NCBI RefSeq assembly: GCF_008274785.1
Contig: NZ_VTPU01000010.1
Span: 1-64,000, forward strand
Reading direction: 5' to 3'
Length of the DNA: 64,000 nt
From: Halomonas eurihalina
GTDB lineage: Bacteria; Pseudomonadota; Gammaproteobacteria; Pseudomonadales; Halomonadaceae
This document shows, piece by piece, positions 32,231-41,402 of this stretch. The position numbers and the translations under genes are program-made. The notes beneath the pieces were generated by a model. That model was not told where the DNA came from. It saw only the letters and a program-made list of their open reading frames with translations, and made no database searches. Position 1 is the first letter of the stretch. Every line of letters begins with the position of its first letter.

Positions 32231-33409
32231 ATGAACGACATTTCGCCACGAGCTGCGCCGGCATGGAGCGCGGTCTTCTCGATGACGCTGGGTGTTTTCG
32301 GATTGGTCACGGCAGAGTTTCTGCCGGTGAGTCTGTTGACCCCCATGGCATCGGATCTCGGTATCAGCGAAGGCATGGCTGGCCAAACGGTAACGGCAAC
32401 GGCCGTGATCGCTCTGGTGACCAGCCTACTGATCACGGCGGCGACCCGGAGGATCGACCGCCGGCATGTTCTGCTGGGATTCTCGACGTTGCTGATCGTC
32501 TCGAATCTCCTGGTGGCACTGGCGCCGAACATGCCGCTGCTGTTGCTCGGTCGCGTTCTGCTGGGCATCGCCCTGGGCGGTTTCTGGACCATGTCGGCGG
32601 CCACGGTGATGCGGCTGGTGCCCGAGGAAAGCGTGCCACGCGCGCTCTCGATGATTTTCAGCGGTGTGTCGGTGGCCACCATCGGCGCTGCACCCATGGG
32701 CAGTTTCTTCGGCGATATCATCGGCTGGCGGAATGTCTTCCTGATTGCCGCATTGTTTGGCGTGTTGGCCTTGCTGGTGCAATTCGCCACCTTGCCAGGC
32801 ATGGCCCCGAACGCCCAGACACGCCTGAAAACCCTGGTCGAGGTGCTGCGGCGCCCGATGGTTGGGCTTGGCATTCTGGCCGCCGCCATGATCTTCGCGG
32901 GCCATTTCGCCTTCTTCACCTATATCCGCCCCTTCCTCGAAACCGTCACCCGCGTCGACGTGAACGGTCTATCCAGCATCCTGCTTGGATTTGGCCTGGC
33001 CAACTTCCTGGGAACTTTCCTGGGAGGCTTCATGCTTGAACGCAACATGCGTTTCACGCAGATCGTCATGCCGGCGACGATGGGAATCCTTGGCCTGGGA
33101 CTGTCGGGCGTCGGCGGCATTCCCATGGTCGATGCACTGATGGTGGCGCTCTGGGGCATGGCATTCGGTACCGTTCCTGTCGCCTGGTCCACCTGGCTGA
33201 CCCGCACGGTGCCCGATGAAGCCGAAAGCGCAGGTGGCCTGCTGGTGGCGGCGATTCAGTTCGCGATCGCCAGTGGCGCGGCCATCGGCGGCCTGGTCTT
33301 CGATACCAGCGGTGCCATCGGTGTCTTTGCGGTGAGTGGCGTCGTGCTGCTGATGGCGGCACTGCTCATCCTGTTCGGTGTCAGAACCCAGGCTGCCATT
33401 CCGACCTGA
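32231..33409 (+). CDS. nepI: MFS exporter, NepI-like (purine ribonucleoside efflux)
   Basis: A 392-residue, 12-helix major facilitator. Its N-terminal AEFLPVSLLTPMASDLGISEG and GGFWTMSAATVMRLVPEE are very close to what I recall of E. coli NepI, which exports purine ribonucleosides such as inosine. GHFAFFTYIRPFLE and VPVAWSTWLTRTVPDEAE also match. A monocistronic unit with its own terminator. Substrate assignment is by resemblance. Confidence 0.8.
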   Translation: MNDISPRAAPAWSAVFSMTLGVFGLVTAEFLPVSLLTPMASDLGISEGMAGQTVTATAVIALVTSLLITAATRRIDRRHVLLGFSTLLIVSNLLVALAPNMPLLLLGRVLLGIALGGFWTMSAATVMRLVPEESVPRALSMIFSGVSVATIGAAPMGSFFGDIIGWRNVFLIAALFGVLALLVQFATLPGMAPNAQTRLKTLVEVLRRPMVGLGILAAAMIFAGHFAFFTYIRPFLETVTRVDVNGLSSILLGFGLANFLGTFLGGFMLERNMRFTQIVMPATMGILGLGLSGVGGIPMVDALMVALWGMAFGTVPVAWSTWLTRTVPDEAESAGGLLVAAIQFAIASGAAIGGLVFDTSGAIGVFAVSGVVLLMAALLILFGVRTQAAIPT

Positions 33410-33432
33410 TCGACACCATCAATGCATACTTG

Positions 33433-33458
33433 GGGCGCCATCATGGCGCCCTTCTTTT
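33433..33458 (+). terminator. Rho-independent terminator of the nepI-like gene
   Basis: Arms GGGCGCCA (33433-33440) and TGGCGCCC (33444-33451) with a three-base loop, followed by TTCTTTT. It lies 23 bases past the stop. Confidence 0.85.
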
Positions 33459-33657
33459 GCTCGTCATCAAGTCCTTCCCGTTCATATTTTCTGCTTGTCC
33501 AGCCTCTCGGCATGCGTTGTCCTACGGATCGTGCTCGGTTGACAGGCCCCTCTATCATGCTGGTTCGGGCCATCATCGTGGACAGCAGGAAGCCGGCTCC
33601 TTATCATCTCTGCAGCTCTTTTACTCGTTCACGTCAGTGCAAAAGGACACCCTCAAT

Positions 33658-34494
33658 ATGCCGAATCGCCCAATGTTGGTGCTATCGCTCTTCGGGTCAA
33701 TGGCATTGCTCGGGGGCTGCGCCCACCTGTCTCCACAGGAGGAAACGCCGCCGCCAGTGACGGCAGCACAGTTCGAGGCCGGCATCCAGGGGCTGGAAAG
33801 CAGCCTTGCTGCTCGTTGCGAGAATCAGTCGCACCTGCTGTCGTTGCAGCGGATGGAACAGCGGACGCTGACGGCTGACGTGCGCGAGGTGGGCAGCTTG
33901 TTACGAGGCCTGCGCGGCGATATTGCCGCTCTTGATGACAACAATGACGAGCAGACCACCAAGGTCGTCACCGAGTGCCGGGCGGCCGATGACAGGCTGG
34001 CCAACAAGGAGCTCCTGGGTCGTAGCGAATGGATCGGCCTGCCGAACGTCGGTACCTATTTGCAGGCACGCGTGGATTCCGGAGCGGATACCTCGTCGCT
34101 CAGCGCCAGGGAGATCACCAGTTTCGAGCGGGATGGCGAAGATTGGGTACGCTTCAAGCTCGGCCTCGATGACGATGACAGTGTCGTCGATACGGTGCGC
34201 GGCAGCTGGGTCGAGGCACCGGTGGAACGCCGTGTCCGAGTCACACAGGCAACCGGAGAGGAATCCCGCCCAGTCATCGAATTGCTGATGACCCTGGGGC
34301 CGATCCGCGAAACAGTGGAATTCACGCTGACGGATCGCGCTCATCTCGATTACCCAGTTCTGCTCGGGCGGCATTTCCTGATGGATATCGCCATCATTGA
34401 TGTCGCCGAGGACTTCCTCCATGAGCGTCCCAAGTTTCCCGATACGTCTGAACAGACGGACGCCGCCGAGCCGGCAGAAGACGAAGCACCCTGA
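33658..34494 (+). CDS. Retropepsin-like lipoprotein (PF05618, 'ATP-dependent zinc protease')
   Basis: A 278-residue lipoprotein: the lipobox L-G-G-C21 is followed by Ala, so outer-membrane sorting is likely. Residues about 35-110 are helical. The C-terminal domain matches PF05618, commonly labelled zinc protease, but the visible motif is D140-S-G-A-D-T-S-S, the active-site pattern of retropepsin-type aspartic proteases, with PVLLGRHFL near the end. AAAGGA lies upstream of the ATG. It is first in a three-gene cluster with an inactive transglutaminase/7TM protein and a RimK-like ligase. Protease activity and substrate are inferred. Confidence 0.82.
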   Translation: MPNRPMLVLSLFGSMALLGGCAHLSPQEETPPPVTAAQFEAGIQGLESSLAARCENQSHLLSLQRMEQRTLTADVREVGSLLRGLRGDIAALDDNNDEQTTKVVTECRAADDRLANKELLGRSEWIGLPNVGTYLQARVDSGADTSSLSAREITSFERDGEDWVRFKLGLDDDDSVVDTVRGSWVEAPVERRVRVTQATGEESRPVIELLMTLGPIRETVEFTLTDRAHLDYPVLLGRHFLMDIAIIDVAEDFLHERPKFPDTSEQTDAAEPAEDEAP

Positions 34495-34542
34495 GACCTG
34501 ATATACGGATGTATTTCACCCTGATTTACCAAGGAAGTTGAG

Positions 34543-36054
34543 ATGTCCCGACTGCCCTTCTATCTGATCGTTGCCTTGTTGCTGGTTGCCGGCATCGGTT
34601 TGAGCATTCATCGCCATGTCCAGTTCGAGGTTCCCTGGACGCCGGGCGAGCAACGACAGGTCTGGGAAATCGAGGCGCAGGTCAACTTTGTCGCCGAGGG
34701 TGGCCCCGCCAAGGTGGAAATGGCACTGCCCTCCACCCAGGAAGGCTTCCGGGTGCTGACCGAGCACACGGCTTCCCCCGGCTATGGTCTCTCGTTTCTC
34801 GAGGAGAACGGCAGCCGCCGCGCCCTCTGGACGGTCCGCGAGGCCTCCGGCAATCAGCAGCTCTATTACAGTAGCCGTATCCAGGTTGCTCCCCAGGCCC
34901 GCGCATCCGAGACTCCTCCTCCTTCGCTCGAACCCGATGTCGTCTGGGAGCGTCCTTACGATACGGCAGCCTCCCAGGTCATCGACCGCGCCTGGTCGCG
35001 CAGTGCTGATCCTTTTACCTTCACCCGCGAACTGGTCCGCGAGTTCAGCGAAGAGCGCCAGGGGGAAAACGCGCGCTTGCTGCTGACACAATTCGATCGT
35101 GTGCCACTGCTGGTCCGTCTGCTTAACCAGGCCGGTGTCCCGGCACGCGAGGTCAGTGGCCTGATGCTGGAGGATGGGCGACGCCGACAGAGCCTGACGC
35201 CCTGGATCCAGGTCTACGACGAAGATGAGCAGTCGCTCTTCAACCCGGCTACCGGCGAGCAGGGACACCCCGACAATCTCCTGTTGTGGGAGAACGCCGG
35301 CAAGTCGGTGCTTGAGGTTCAGGGCGGCACTGACTCTCAGGTCTATTTTTCCATGCTGTCGCGCAATCAGCCTGCCGGGGCCGCCGTGCGCAGCCGCATG
35401 GCCGAGGCTTCCGACACCATCCTCAACTTCTCGATCCACAGCCTGCCCCTCGAGGAGCAGGCGCTGTTCCAGACGATTCTGTTGATTCCCATCGGGGCGC
35501 TGGTCGTGGTCCTGTTACGTGTGCTGGTTGGCATCAAGACCTCGGGGACCTTCATGCCGGTGCTGATCGCCCTCGCCTTCATCCAGACCACTCTGGCCAC
35601 CGGCCTGATCGGCTTCCTGCTGGTGGTGGCCGTGGGCCTGGTCATCCGTAACTATCTGTCCTATCTCAACCTGTTATTGGTGGCGAGGGTCACGGCGGTC
35701 ATCATTACGGTGATCGCCATCATCTCGCTGTTCTCGGTGCTGTCCTACCGCATCGGGCTCAATGCCGGCCTGACCATCACCTTCTTCCCGATGATCATCC
35801 TCTCCTGGACCATCGAACGCATGTCGATCCTCTGGGAAGAGGAAGGCCCCAAGGAAGTCCTGATCCAGGGTGGCGGTAGCCTGTTGACCGCAGTACTGGC
35901 CTATCTGGCCATGAACAATCCCTGGATTCGCCACATCACCTTCAATTTCCTCGGCGTGCAGTTGATCCTGATGGCGCTGATTCTGATGCTTGGCAACTAC
36001 ACCGGTTACCGCCTGCTGGAACTGCGTCGCTTCAAGCCGGTCACGGAGGACTGA
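34543..36054 (+). CDS. Inactive transglutaminase-7TM membrane protein
   Basis: A 503-residue inner-membrane protein. One N-terminal helix (residues about 4-21) is followed by a periplasmic transglutaminase-like domain (about 25-300) and a C-terminal block of about seven helices from residue 308. The transglutaminase fold is seen in LLVRLLNQAGVPAREVSGL and LTPWIQVYDEDEQSLFNP, but the catalytic Cys is absent and the usual HAW reads TPW, so it should be inactive. AAGGAAG precedes the ATG. It is known from families co-located with RimK-like ligases (PF14400/PF14402 type). It may present periplasmic peptides or sense them. Confidence 0.82.
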   Translation: MSRLPFYLIVALLLVAGIGLSIHRHVQFEVPWTPGEQRQVWEIEAQVNFVAEGGPAKVEMALPSTQEGFRVLTEHTASPGYGLSFLEENGSRRALWTVREASGNQQLYYSSRIQVAPQARASETPPPSLEPDVVWERPYDTAASQVIDRAWSRSADPFTFTRELVREFSEERQGENARLLLTQFDRVPLLVRLLNQAGVPAREVSGLMLEDGRRRQSLTPWIQVYDEDEQSLFNPATGEQGHPDNLLLWENAGKSVLEVQGGTDSQVYFSMLSRNQPAGAAVRSRMAEASDTILNFSIHSLPLEEQALFQTILLIPIGALVVVLLRVLVGIKTSGTFMPVLIALAFIQTTLATGLIGFLLVVAVGLVIRNYLSYLNLLLVARVTAVIITVIAIISLFSVLSYRIGLNAGLTITFFPMIILSWTIERMSILWEEEGPKEVLIQGGGSLLTAVLAYLAMNNPWIRHITFNFLGVQLILMALILMLGNYTGYRLLELRRFKPVTED

Positions 36055-36058
36055 GCCG

Positions 36059-37048
36059 ATGTGGACAACCCCCAGCAAGCTGCACGCCAAGGGCATCATT
36101 GGCATGAATCGGCGCAACATCCGCTATATCGGCCGCTACAACGACCGGCGGCTCTATCCGCTGGTCGATGACAAGCTGCAGACGAAACTGCTCGCTCAGC
36201 GCTACGACATTACCACGCCGGCGCTGATCGGCACGGTGTCGACCCAATTCGGCATCAAGCGCATGCGCGATATGCTCGATGGCCACACCGGGTTCGTCAT
36301 CAAACCGGCCAAGGGCAGTGGCGGCAAGGGCATCCTGGTCGTCGAGCACATCGAGGGCCAGCATTACATCAAGCCCAGCGGAGCCCGCCTGACACTCAAG
36401 GATGTGGAGCGCCATGTGTCCAACATTCTCTCGGGGCTTTATTCGCTGGGTGGGTCACCGGACGTGGCGCTCATCGAGGGACTGATCAATTTCGACGAGA
36501 CCTTCAACGAGTACACTTACGAAGGCGTGCCGGATATTCGCGTCATCGTATTCAAGGGCTACCCGGTCATGGCCATGATGCGACTTTCCACTGCCGACTC
36601 GGATGGCAAGGCCAACCTGCATCAGGGGGCGGTGGGCGTCGGCATCGACATAGCTTCCGGCCAGGCGATACGCGGCGTGCAATTCGACCGTTCACGTCAC
36701 GACCACCCCGATACCGGGCACGAGCTGGCCAGCCTGCGAATTGCCAACTGGGGCACTTTGCTGAAGCTGGCGGCGAGCTGCTACGAAATGACCTCGCTGG
36801 GCTATCTCGGCACCGATATGGTGCTGGATCGCGATCATGGCCCCATGTTGCTGGAACTCAACGCGCGCCCTGGCCTGGCCATCCAGATGGCCAACGGCGA
36901 GGGCCTGCGTAATCGCCTGGATCTCATCGAGCAGCAGCCCGATGGGCTCGATGTCGAACAGCGGGTGGAATTTGCACAGCATCACTTCGCACGACGCAGC
37001 GAGCTGGATGCCAGTCGAGCGGCATCGACACAAATGGAATCGGCATGA
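36059..37048 (+). CDS. RimK-like alpha-L-glutamate ligase homologue (ATP-grasp)
   Basis: A 329-residue ATP-grasp ligase of the RimK-related family (TIGR02291 type). ATP-binding GFVIKPAKGSGGKGILVV and the metal-binding LLELNARPGL are visible. Relatives of RimK add glutamates or other amino acids to protein or small-molecule carboxylates; the target of this branch is unknown. Its ATG starts four bases after the 7TM gene stop, with ACGGAGGA upstream, so the three genes are one operon. The C-terminal tail (HFARRSELDASRAASTQ) is variable. Confidence 0.85.
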   Translation: MWTTPSKLHAKGIIGMNRRNIRYIGRYNDRRLYPLVDDKLQTKLLAQRYDITTPALIGTVSTQFGIKRMRDMLDGHTGFVIKPAKGSGGKGILVVEHIEGQHYIKPSGARLTLKDVERHVSNILSGLYSLGGSPDVALIEGLINFDETFNEYTYEGVPDIRVIVFKGYPVMAMMRLSTADSDGKANLHQGAVGVGIDIASGQAIRGVQFDRSRHDHPDTGHELASLRIANWGTLLKLAASCYEMTSLGYLGTDMVLDRDHGPMLLELNARPGLAIQMANGEGLRNRLDLIEQQPDGLDVEQRVEFAQHHFARRSELDASRAASTQMESA

Positions 37049-38908: not shown

Positions 38909-40123
38909 TTATACCGGTTGCTCCCCCGCTCCGTCCGCCCCCTCTTCATCTCGAGGCGCCAGGCCATGCCGCGCCTGCTGTCGATGCCATTCTTCGGCCT
39001 CGGCATGCAAGTAGCGGGCCGTGGTATCGAGCCGGGAGTGACGCGCCGTCTCGGCGAGATAGCGCAGCTCGATACCGGCCTGGGCCTGATGCGTCAGTGC
39101 CGTATGGCGTAGCCAGTGCGGCGTGGCGCGTCGCAACTGCGCCACCTCGCGTTCTGCTTCGCTGCCGAGTTGCTGTTCCAGTGCGATGGCCGCCTGCTCG
39201 AAGGTGGCCCGAATCAAGCGGTACAGGTGGTTGTCGCCCACACTGCGCCGTCCATCGAGCCCCCGCAGCAATGGCGTCGACTCGTCGGGTGATGGCTCCG
39301 GCGGGAGTCCCAGGGTGGCGCGCCAATCGGCTAGCAATCGCATCATGTCCGGCGGCACGGGGATGCGCGCGATCTTGGCGCCCTTCCCCGTCACTCGCCA
39401 CCACCAGCGGCCCTCGCGTCGTTCGAAGTCGTCCATCCGAGCGGCGGTCATCTCACCGATTCGTGGTGCCAATAGATAGGCGAAGCCAAAGACCAGCCGC
39501 CGACGCGCCCAGATGAAATGCGCACGCTCGGAAGCCTGCTCCGTCAGCGGCCGGTTCAGCCATTGCCAGAGCCAGTCCCACAGCGGTCGCTCCAGATAGC
39601 GCTCGATCGCGGCTTGCCGATTGTCCAGCCGTCGCCGCTTGTCACGCATCAGGCGAAACGGATTGTGGTCGAGCCATCCCGCCTCGACCAGCCAGGCACA
39701 GAGCCCTTGCAGAATAACCAGGCTCTGGCGTCGGCTCGACGGTGACAAGGGGCCGCGAAACGGCCGCCAGCGCAGGTCCTGGCGCGGCCGGGTCGGCCCG
39801 ATCCAGCGTTCTCTCGGCGCTGGATCACCGAGAAAGGCCTCGAAGGCGTCGAGATGATCGCGCCGTAATTCGATCAGCGACATGCCCCGCTCGTCCAGCC
39901 ACAGCAACAAGCGCTCGGCCTCGCGCCGATAGGCTCTCCGGGTATTCGGGCTGGCGCGATACTCCTCCAGCCAGAGCGCTACCGCCTGGACATCGCTGGT
40001 GGCCGCGATACGCCCTACCCCGCTTGTCAGGCCGCCGCCCAGGGGCGTGACGCTTGATTCGTAAAGTCCCGTCCCGATCTCCGGGGCCACGGGATAAGCC
40101 GCTTGCGGCGATTCTCCTTCCAT
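38909..40123 (-). CDS. Tyrosine recombinase (XerC/phage-integrase family)
   Basis: A 404-residue site-specific recombinase. Residues about 45-160 form a SAM-like N-terminal DNA-binding domain (VALWLEEYRASPNTRRAYRREAERL). The catalytic set is visible in order: Arg in LLAPRIGEMTAARMDD, Lys in VTGKGAK, the HWLRH box, the second H/R in ARHSRLDTTARYLH, and the nucleophile Tyr in that same motif. No transposon, phage genes or terminal repeats flank it. It is divergent from a KfrA-like gene across an AT-rich gap with a perfect inverted repeat, which may be its site or an operator. Probably a domesticated, conserved chromosomal recombinase. Confidence 0.88.
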   Translation of the reverse strand: MEGESPQAAYPVAPEIGTGLYESSVTPLGGGLTSGVGRIAATSDVQAVALWLEEYRASPNTRRAYRREAERLLLWLDERGMSLIELRRDHLDAFEAFLGDPAPRERWIGPTRPRQDLRWRPFRGPLSPSSRRQSLVILQGLCAWLVEAGWLDHNPFRLMRDKRRRLDNRQAAIERYLERPLWDWLWQWLNRPLTEQASERAHFIWARRRLVFGFAYLLAPRIGEMTAARMDDFERREGRWWWRVTGKGAKIARIPVPPDMMRLLADWRATLGLPPEPSPDESTPLLRGLDGRRSVGDNHLYRLIRATFEQAAIALEQQLGSEAEREVAQLRRATPHWLRHTALTHQAQAGIELRYLAETARHSRLDTTARYLHAEAEEWHRQQARHGLAPRDEEGADGAGEQPV

Positions 40124-40192
40124 CAGGACGGGCTCCTGCGCACCATTCGACTGCTTGCTCTGCCTGACTCCAGTGTCGCGCTGTAAGCACTA

Positions 40193-40224
40193 ATAATCAA
40201 GATAAGGCGCGTAATCTTGATTAT
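40193..40224. promoter_or_regulatory. Perfect 11-bp inverted repeat in the recombinase/KfrA intergenic region
   Basis: Arms ATAATCAAGAT (40193-40203) and ATCTTGATTAT (40214-40224) are exact reverse complements separated by 10 bases. The site lies in the AT-rich 235-base gap between the divergent recombinase and KfrA-like genes. Arm length resembles a tyrosine-recombinase core site, but the spacer is longer than the usual 6-8 bases. An operator for the KfrA-like protein is equally likely. A smaller palindrome ATTAT-CC-ATAAT lies at 40251-40262. Confidence 0.7.
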
Positions 40225-40358
40225 ATGGCGGATACAATAAATAAAATTACATTATCCATAATACGTAATAAGCTTTATCTTCGCTCCGGAAGGCGCTATC
40301 CTGCGCTCATTGATCGGGCGGCCTGCCGCACCGATAACCCTGTGACGAGGAGAACCCC

Positions 40359-41402
40359 ATGGCACGCACCGGTGTGCGATACGAGGATGTACAGCGCGCC
40401 ATCGACTCCCTGATGGCCAAGGGCGAAGCCCCCAGCGTGCACAAGATTCGCGAGACGCTCGGCACGGGCAGCTTCACTACCATCAGCGAGCACCTGCGCG
40501 AATGGCGCCGCCTGCGCGAGGAGAATCGTGACGTGCCGCCACCCCAGGGCATGCCCGCCGAGCTGCAGGAGCTGGCCGAGACGCTCTGGACCCAAGCCCA
40601 GGAAGCGGCCAATCAGGCACTGGCGCACTATCGCCAGGAAGCCGATTCACGCGTTGATGATGCCCGCCAGCAGGCCGCCGAGGCTGAACGTCGCGCCGAG
40701 GATGCCGAACAGCGTGAAACCGCCCTGTCGGCACACCTGACCCAGATCGATCAGCGCCTCGAGCAGCGCACCTCGGAACTGGCTCAGTTGCGCACAGAGC
40801 ACGAGGCGCTTCAGGAACGGGAGGCCCGGTCGAGGGATCGTCTCGATGAGCTGGTGCGGCGCCTGGAAGCAGCCGAAGAGCAAGCGAAACACCGCGAACA
40901 GGCTCATCGACAGGCATTGGAGGAACAGGCCGAGGCGCACCGTGAGCGCCTGGCGCAGGAGGAAGAGCGCAATGAAACCGCCGAGGCGCGCCTGATGGGG
41001 CTGCTCGATCAGGAACGCCAGGAACGCCAGGCGGCCGAAAAGGCCCATGCCGGCCGGGAACAGCGCCTGACGCGCCGACTGGAAACCCTCCAGGAACAGC
41101 AAAGCGCCCTGCAGACAGATCTCGCTGCTGCCCGCCAGGCACAGCACGACGCCGAACAGGCCCGGGGCAATGCCGAGCAACGCGAGGCCGCCTTGCGCGA
41201 CCAGCACGAACAGCTCAATGCGCGTTTCGAGCAGCAGGAACAGCGTATAGCGGAACAGACGGAACAATGGCGCGAACGTGAGCGCCACTTCGAGCAGCGG
41301 CTATGGGCCTCGCTCGACGCCATGCGCGAAGAATGGCGAAGTGAAAGGACCGCCGCGCCCGGGGACGAAAACGACACCCCAGACGCAACGAACCCCGCTT
41401 GA
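40359..41402 (+). CDS. KfrA-like DNA-binding coiled-coil protein
   Basis: A 347-residue protein. The N-terminus is a KfrA_N-type DNA-binding domain (VRYEDVQRAIDSLMAKGEAPSVHKIRETLGTGSFTTISEHLREWR, read in parts; PF11740). From residue about 75 to 330 it is one very long Gln/Glu/Arg/Ala-rich coiled coil, as in plasmid KfrA, an autorepressor linked to plasmid maintenance. GAGGAG precedes the ATG. Here it is chromosomal and divergent from a tyrosine recombinase. It may bind the inverted repeat between them and bridge DNA. Confidence 0.82.
   Translation: MARTGVRYEDVQRAIDSLMAKGEAPSVHKIRETLGTGSFTTISEHLREWRRLREENRDVPPPQGMPAELQELAETLWTQAQEAANQALAHYRQEADSRVDDARQQAAEAERRAEDAEQRETALSAHLTQIDQRLEQRTSELAQLRTEHEALQEREARSRDRLDELVRRLEAAEEQAKHREQAHRQALEEQAEAHRERLAQEEERNETAEARLMGLLDQERQERQAAEKAHAGREQRLTRRLETLQEQQSALQTDLAAARQAQHDAEQARGNAEQREAALRDQHEQLNARFEQQEQRIAEQTEQWRERERHFEQRLWASLDAMREEWRSERTAAPGDENDTPDATNPA

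Follow-up and report, generated by a model that had tools for sequence, protein, structure and literature searches.

The window analysed here, a 64,000-nucleotide stretch of the Halomonas eurihalina genome (contig NZ_VTPU01000010.1, positions 1 to 64,000), carries three consecutive genes that are the halomonad copy of the rlo operon, a system already described and named in Pseudomonas aeruginosa (RloA-RloB-RloC; mBio 2025, PMC12239564), of which the window copy is a new member. The three genes lie on the forward strand. The first gene (33658-34494) encodes an RloA homologue, a retropepsin-like aspartic peptidase lipoprotein of 278 residues (PF05618, E=4.6e-37). The second (34543-36054) encodes an RloB homologue of 503 residues, an inner-membrane protein comprising an N-terminal transmembrane helix, a periplasmic inactive transglutaminase-like domain and a seven-transmembrane (7TM) domain (PF14400, E=6e-56; PF14402, E=8e-110). 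The third (36059-37048) encodes an RloC homologue, a cytoplasmic RimK-related protein of 329 residues with a predicted ATP-grasp ligase function (TIGR02291; PF14397, E=1.2e-93). All three are located where a previous annotation made from the letters of the window (hereafter the sequence-only reading) had placed them. Because the intergenic gaps measure only 48 nucleotides (first to second gene) and 4 nucleotides (second to third), the genes look like a single operon. Upstream of the rloA homologue there is a terminator-like hairpin (33432-33452) and a sigma-70-like match (TGGACA-17-TATCAT, 33579-33607), a weak candidate for the operon promoter with 1 match found against 1.3 expected in shuffled sequences; neither the promoter scan nor the terminator scan upstream of the trio exceeded the shuffled background.

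The RloA homologue starts with a lipoprotein signal peptide (33658-33720) ending in the lipobox LGGC, with Cys21 followed by Ala at position +2. The retropepsin-like domain (PF05618, 34015-34428) contains the catalytic motif D140-S-G-A (34075-34086), which conforms to the D-[ST]-G-A signature of secreted PF05618 retropepsins. Among 81 homologues D140 is invariant (81/81), G142 and A143 are each present in 80, and at least 95% retain Cys21. The previous assignment as an outer-membrane-type lipoprotein with a protease motif is right. Identity to the window protein is 57% in the catalytic domain and 24% in the N-terminal spacer. A sequence search of the PDB returned both solved RloA structures as the best matches (9g59_A, E=6.7e-25; 9g58_A, E=6e-18). 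Besides the window copy, the genome encodes two more secreted RloA paralogues. A secreted paralogue on contig C57 (L002:59-1959) lies 51 nucleotides 3' of a lytic-transglycosylase-like gene with a peptidoglycan-binding C-terminus, a possible tie to cell-wall phenotypes.

The RloB homologue combines PF14400 and PF14402 with a degenerate active site. In its periplasmic domain (34630-35373) the Cys-His-Asp triad of active transglutaminases and papain-like peptidases is missing: aligned with homologues that have an intact triad, the Cys position falls inside a deletion, which close relatives share, the His is replaced by T and the Asp by N. The loss of catalytic residues noticed in the sequence-only reading is therefore real. 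An AlphaFold2 model (mean predicted local distance difference test score, pLDDT, 80) shows the N-terminal helix, the periplasmic domain and a helical membrane domain. A PDB search with the RloB sequence gave no match; the model of the periplasmic domain has a fold match in 3isr, which is a cysteine protease of the transglutaminase type (VIA Z 14.2, root-mean-square deviation (rmsd) 4.1 over 215 residues; Foldseek E=3.6e-8). The membrane domain (7TM_transglut, 35449-36033) is the best conserved part of the protein, with a mean identity to the window RloB of 82% against 54% for the transglutaminase domain, and it contains many invariant charged residues (R326, R369, R382, E425, R426, E432-E434, E493 and R496). 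Modelled alone it has a pLDDT of 74.5. Its nearest solved folds are subunits of Rnf, Nqr and Mtr, followed by ALMT anion channels, at Z values of 7-8.1, which are below the level that is reliable for helical proteins; with the inverted-repeat fold of Rnf/Nqr/Mtr the rmsd is 3.1-4.7 over 115-154 residues, the next unrelated groups reach Z values of at most 7.1, and Foldseek gives E >1. An internal duplication within the 7TM domain was considered and rejected (hhalign probability 0.9%).

The RloC homologue, encoded by the third gene, scores 446.7 bits with TIGR02291, above the cut-off of 314.2, and retains the ATP-grasp motifs common to RimK, as judged by motif alignment. Mean identity of RloC proteins to the window protein is 69%. 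There is no Rimk_N match, and the N-terminal domain of RimK is absent. The protein is thus the cytoplasmic, RimK-like ATP-grasp homologue that had been predicted.

Scanning a single genome for each species yielded hundreds of relatives, and 80 loci were kept for analysis of gene order. The order A-B-C is present in all of them, in Halomonadaceae, Aeromonas, Vibrio, Photobacterium, Shewanella and Methylophaga. In a phylum-wide sample of 200 genomes, PF14402 occurs in 34 and PF05618 in 72; PF05618 accompanies PF14402 in 31 of these 34 genomes, and 41 of the other 166 have PF05618 (Fisher p=2.6e-13, not corrected for phylogeny). Where RloB is of the inactive form, PF05618 is always present (28/28 genomes) and adjoins rloB in 27. 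One contig labelled as an Azoarcus metagenome-assembled genome (L073) bears a halomonad-like rlo operon, whose RloB is 73% identical to that of the window; the contig may have been binned in error. The sequence-only reading had proposed such a co-occurrence count, and had named two outcomes as fatal to a joint function: conservation confined to the genus, and independent phenotypes of the three genes. The trio is conserved far outside the genus, and in P. aeruginosa the phenotypes are coupled (PMC12239564).

The genetics of the P. aeruginosa operon are informative for the function of the window copy. Cells without all three secreted RloA proteases fail at low salt (hypo-osmotic conditions), lose biofilm formation and cell shape and become antibiotic-sensitive, and deletion of rloB or rloC in this protease-null background fully rescues the low-salt defect and partly the other defects (PMC12239564). 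By this suppression pattern, the task of RloA is to remove something that arises through RloB and RloC. In vitro, RloA of P. aeruginosa cuts stretches of 8 or more Glu, and its Glu-binding residues are required in the cell (PMC12239564).

We hypothesize that RloC builds an acidic chain, that the 7TM domain of RloB carries this chain across the inner membrane, and that RloA cuts it in the periplasm, and we give this proposal about an even chance of being correct. In such a mechanism RloC would link units of glutamate, or of a very similar acidic residue, to form a short cytoplasmic chain that is either free or attached to a small carrier. The 7TM domain would then move the chain to the periplasmic side, where the catalytically dead transglutaminase-like domain may bind or guide it as it emerges, and outer-membrane-anchored RloA would cleave it and so prevent build-up.

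Divergent versions of the system indicate which parts are indispensable. Two genomes of a divergent family (G087 and G131) encode a 7TM domain without a transglutaminase domain, followed by RloC, and the 7TM and ATP-grasp proteins are therefore the irreducible pair. The constant core is the 7TM domain plus RloC, and the transglutaminase domain and RloA vary. In G131, RimB and RimK are encoded about 1 kb upstream of the 7TM/RloC locus. In one gammaproteobacterial-type divergent clade, RloB matches PF01841 (E ~1e-17) and has the Cys-His-Asp triad in place (loci L033, L034, L051/L220, L052/L221 and L196/L223, in genomes G172, G096, G060, G136 and G328). Secreted RloA is absent from all five of these genomes, four of which lack any PF05618 protein and the fifth of which has only a cytoplasmic RimB beside RimK. 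A live transglutaminase-type domain may stand in for secreted RloA here; the pattern is only suggestive, because a single clade is involved and, of its five assemblies, two are ~88% complete.

Both divergent forms have predicted outer-membrane partners. The intact-triad cluster has the order PepSY-TM-like protein, RloB, RloC, tetratricopeptide repeat (TPR) protein and a predicted outer-membrane beta-barrel of ~395 residues, the last of which is present in all four loci whose contig reaches far enough. In G087 (L048/L224) and G131 (L049/L225), the gene immediately 5' of the 7TM gene encodes a different predicted outer-membrane beta-barrel, ~315 residues long and ending in F. Comparison of the two barrel families gave no sign of homology (probability 0.5%). 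Two separate associations with outer-membrane barrels are what an export function predicts, and the barrel and TPR partners make it more likely that a polyglutamate-like chain is synthesized and exported than that the system is purely regulatory. Tentatively, we extend the proposal to the core as a whole, which could be a Gram-negative machine for making and exporting an acidic peptide polymer in three builds: a secreted retropepsin with a dead transglutaminase domain, as in the window; a live transglutaminase domain with a TPR protein and an outer-membrane barrel and without secreted retropepsin; and the 7TM domain alone with an outer-membrane barrel. In the second and third builds the chain would leave the cell, and in the rlo form it would be cleaved in the periplasm. 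We see this wider scheme as possible, on the unlikely side.

Synthesis by RloC, export by RloB and cleavage by RloA in the cell is the most likely reading of the window trio. The families and their order match rloABC, and the same set of a RimB-RimK pair and RloA paralogues accompanies the operon as in P. aeruginosa; the published epistasis and polyglutamate cleavage, the conservation of the 7TM domain, the partners in the divergent builds and the intact ATP-grasp motifs of RloC all point the same way. The sequence-only reading had likewise suggested a product made inside, passed on by the 7TM protein and trimmed by the lipoprotein, and this idea of a putative product and a putative transport step is now the best supported by P. 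aeruginosa genetics, in-vitro cleavage (PMC12239564) and the core and partner pattern. Several points weigh against it. No product of the rlo operon was detected in the studies cited here. Homology of the 7TM domain to transporters is not established, since the top fold matches (Rnf/Nqr/Mtr, Z ~8) fall below the level that counts for helical proteins. The ligase role of RloC is a prediction, and its Pfam family, PF14397, carries a sugar-transfer name. The beta-barrels were called from a signal peptide, strand-like sequence and aromatic residues at the C-terminus, and none reaches the cut-off of a Pfam family; loss of RloA in the intact-triad clade may have been one event, since only one clade is involved.

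The alternative that survives best is that RloC and RloB add acidic residues to an envelope target (lipid, peptidoglycan precursor or periplasmic protein) and that RloA removes this tag, as a periplasmic counterpart of the action of RimK and RimB on the ribosomal protein RpsF. The RimK/RimB precedent, together with the presence of a RimB-RimK pair in the same genome, speaks for such a modification, as do the cell-wall, cell-shape and ampicillin phenotypes in P. aeruginosa (PMC12239564) and the own-genome RloA paralogue directly 3' of the lytic-transglycosylase-like gene (L002). However, RloC is cytoplasmic and RloA lies beyond the inner membrane, so a tag must still cross; there is no known acceptor, no genome-encoded polyglutamate substrate was found in the P. 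aeruginosa study (PMC12239564), and outer-membrane beta-barrel partners suit export better. We therefore consider modification of an envelope target doubtful, though a serious contender.

Regulated proteolysis, in which RloB would act as a receptor-like protein, RloA would cut RloB or a partner and RloC would modify the cytoplasmic side, with nothing exported, is improbable. Suppression by loss of rloB or rloC would also be expected if uncut RloB were harmful, and the dead transglutaminase domain resembles a ligand-binding module. Yet the preferred substrate of RloA is a stretch of 8 or more Glu, and the protease depends on its Glu-binding residues in the cell (PMC12239564); no such stretch occurs in the window RloB; moreover, the 7TM-RloC pair occurs without the transglutaminase domain and without an adjacent RloA. 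Least probable is that the trio only tunes glutamate or polyglutamate pools as an osmolyte or glutamate store with secondary envelope phenotypes, a possibility raised by the rlo authors that the hypo-osmotic phenotype and the halophilic host here would suit, but many non-halophiles have the system as well (Vibrio, Aeromonas, Shewanella, Pseudomonas-type order). Shape defects, moreover, arise without osmotic stress (PMC12239564).

If the 7TM-RloC core is indeed a synthase and exporter of acidic peptides, a Gram-negative poly-alpha-glutamate pathway has so far been overlooked, and in P. aeruginosa the operon concerned governs hypo-osmotic survival, cell shape, biofilm formation and beta-lactam sensitivity. 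The new elements here are the split of the operon into a core and variable parts, the intact-triad clade without secreted RloA, and the outer-membrane-type partners in two divergent clades. The divergent builds make the export reading testable, in that a live transglutaminase may replace RloA and the outer-membrane barrels suggest secretion.

Other genes in the window are listed for completeness. A NepI-related major facilitator superfamily exporter (32231-33409) lies upstream of the rloA homologue, and a DUF1090 secreted protein (PF06476, 31553-31969) is encoded upstream of the exporter gene; no tie to the operon was found for either. Near sufE, a divergent pair (38909-41402) encodes a tyrosine recombinase (PF00589) and a KfrA_N coiled-coil DNA-binding protein (PF11740), with no obvious mobile element around it.

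The poly-gamma-glutamate synthase PgsBCA/CapBCA resembles the rlo trio by analogy only, in that it also consists of a cytoplasmic amide ligase and a small membrane protein of several helices, and the polymer is hydrolysed by a separate enzyme. The ligase fold of PgsB is of the Mur-ligase type, unlike RloC. A G-x-x-x-P...Q pattern common to the 7TM domain and PgsC gave rise to the idea that the two are homologous. Starting from a sequence that we take to be Bacillus subtilis PgsC (PF14102, E=2.2e-38), the idea was rejected: RloB has no PF14102 match at E<=10, and hhalign gives a probability of 3-10%. In a test with 169 membrane decoys, three tandem CapC repeats outscored the decoys with the RloB profile (14.9 versus 4.6 bits); neither the reverse search nor PgsC itself separated from the decoys. 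Homology is thus not supported, and the likeness is kept as an analogy. The H. eurihalina genome has no PF14102 protein. In a few genomes of the phylum, long proteins open with two tandem CapC-type repeats (L054:3987-7226, L053:1-2064 and L055) and look like a tandem build of the membrane subunit of poly-gamma-glutamate synthase; the L053 gene has a neighbour resembling a CapA-type phosphatase.

RimK/RimB is a pair of an ATP-grasp glutamate ligase and a retropepsin-like protease, both homologous to the window proteins. In contrast to the rlo trio, both are cytoplasmic and have no membrane partner, whereas the window RloA has a lipoprotein signal and RloC lacks Rimk_N. The window trio is not a RimB-RimK system; the true pair, with RimB beside RimK, is located elsewhere in the genome. 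In Shewanella vesiculosa, disruption of the inactive transglutaminase HM2192 leads to more membrane vesicles of altered size (PMC12096838); only the RloB-type gene of the trio was reported there, with neither a product nor a mechanism.

The closest counterpart is the P. aeruginosa operon. The sequence-only reading had noted that the trio is known from comparative genomics, and described its product as not known; it missed that the operon has been named and studied genetically (PMC12239564). The window proteins do not reach the narrow NCBIfam models of P. aeruginosa RloA1-3 and RloB (116.3/210, 113.2/250, 89.4/280 and 339.5/900 bits), and because these models are narrow, the misses argue only against membership in the same ortholog group. 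The window RloA, at 278 residues, also differs in having a lipobox and a poorly conserved 90-residue spacer ahead of the protease domain. The three families and their order are the same in both organisms, as is the presence of secreted RloA paralogues and a RimB-RimK pair elsewhere in the genome.
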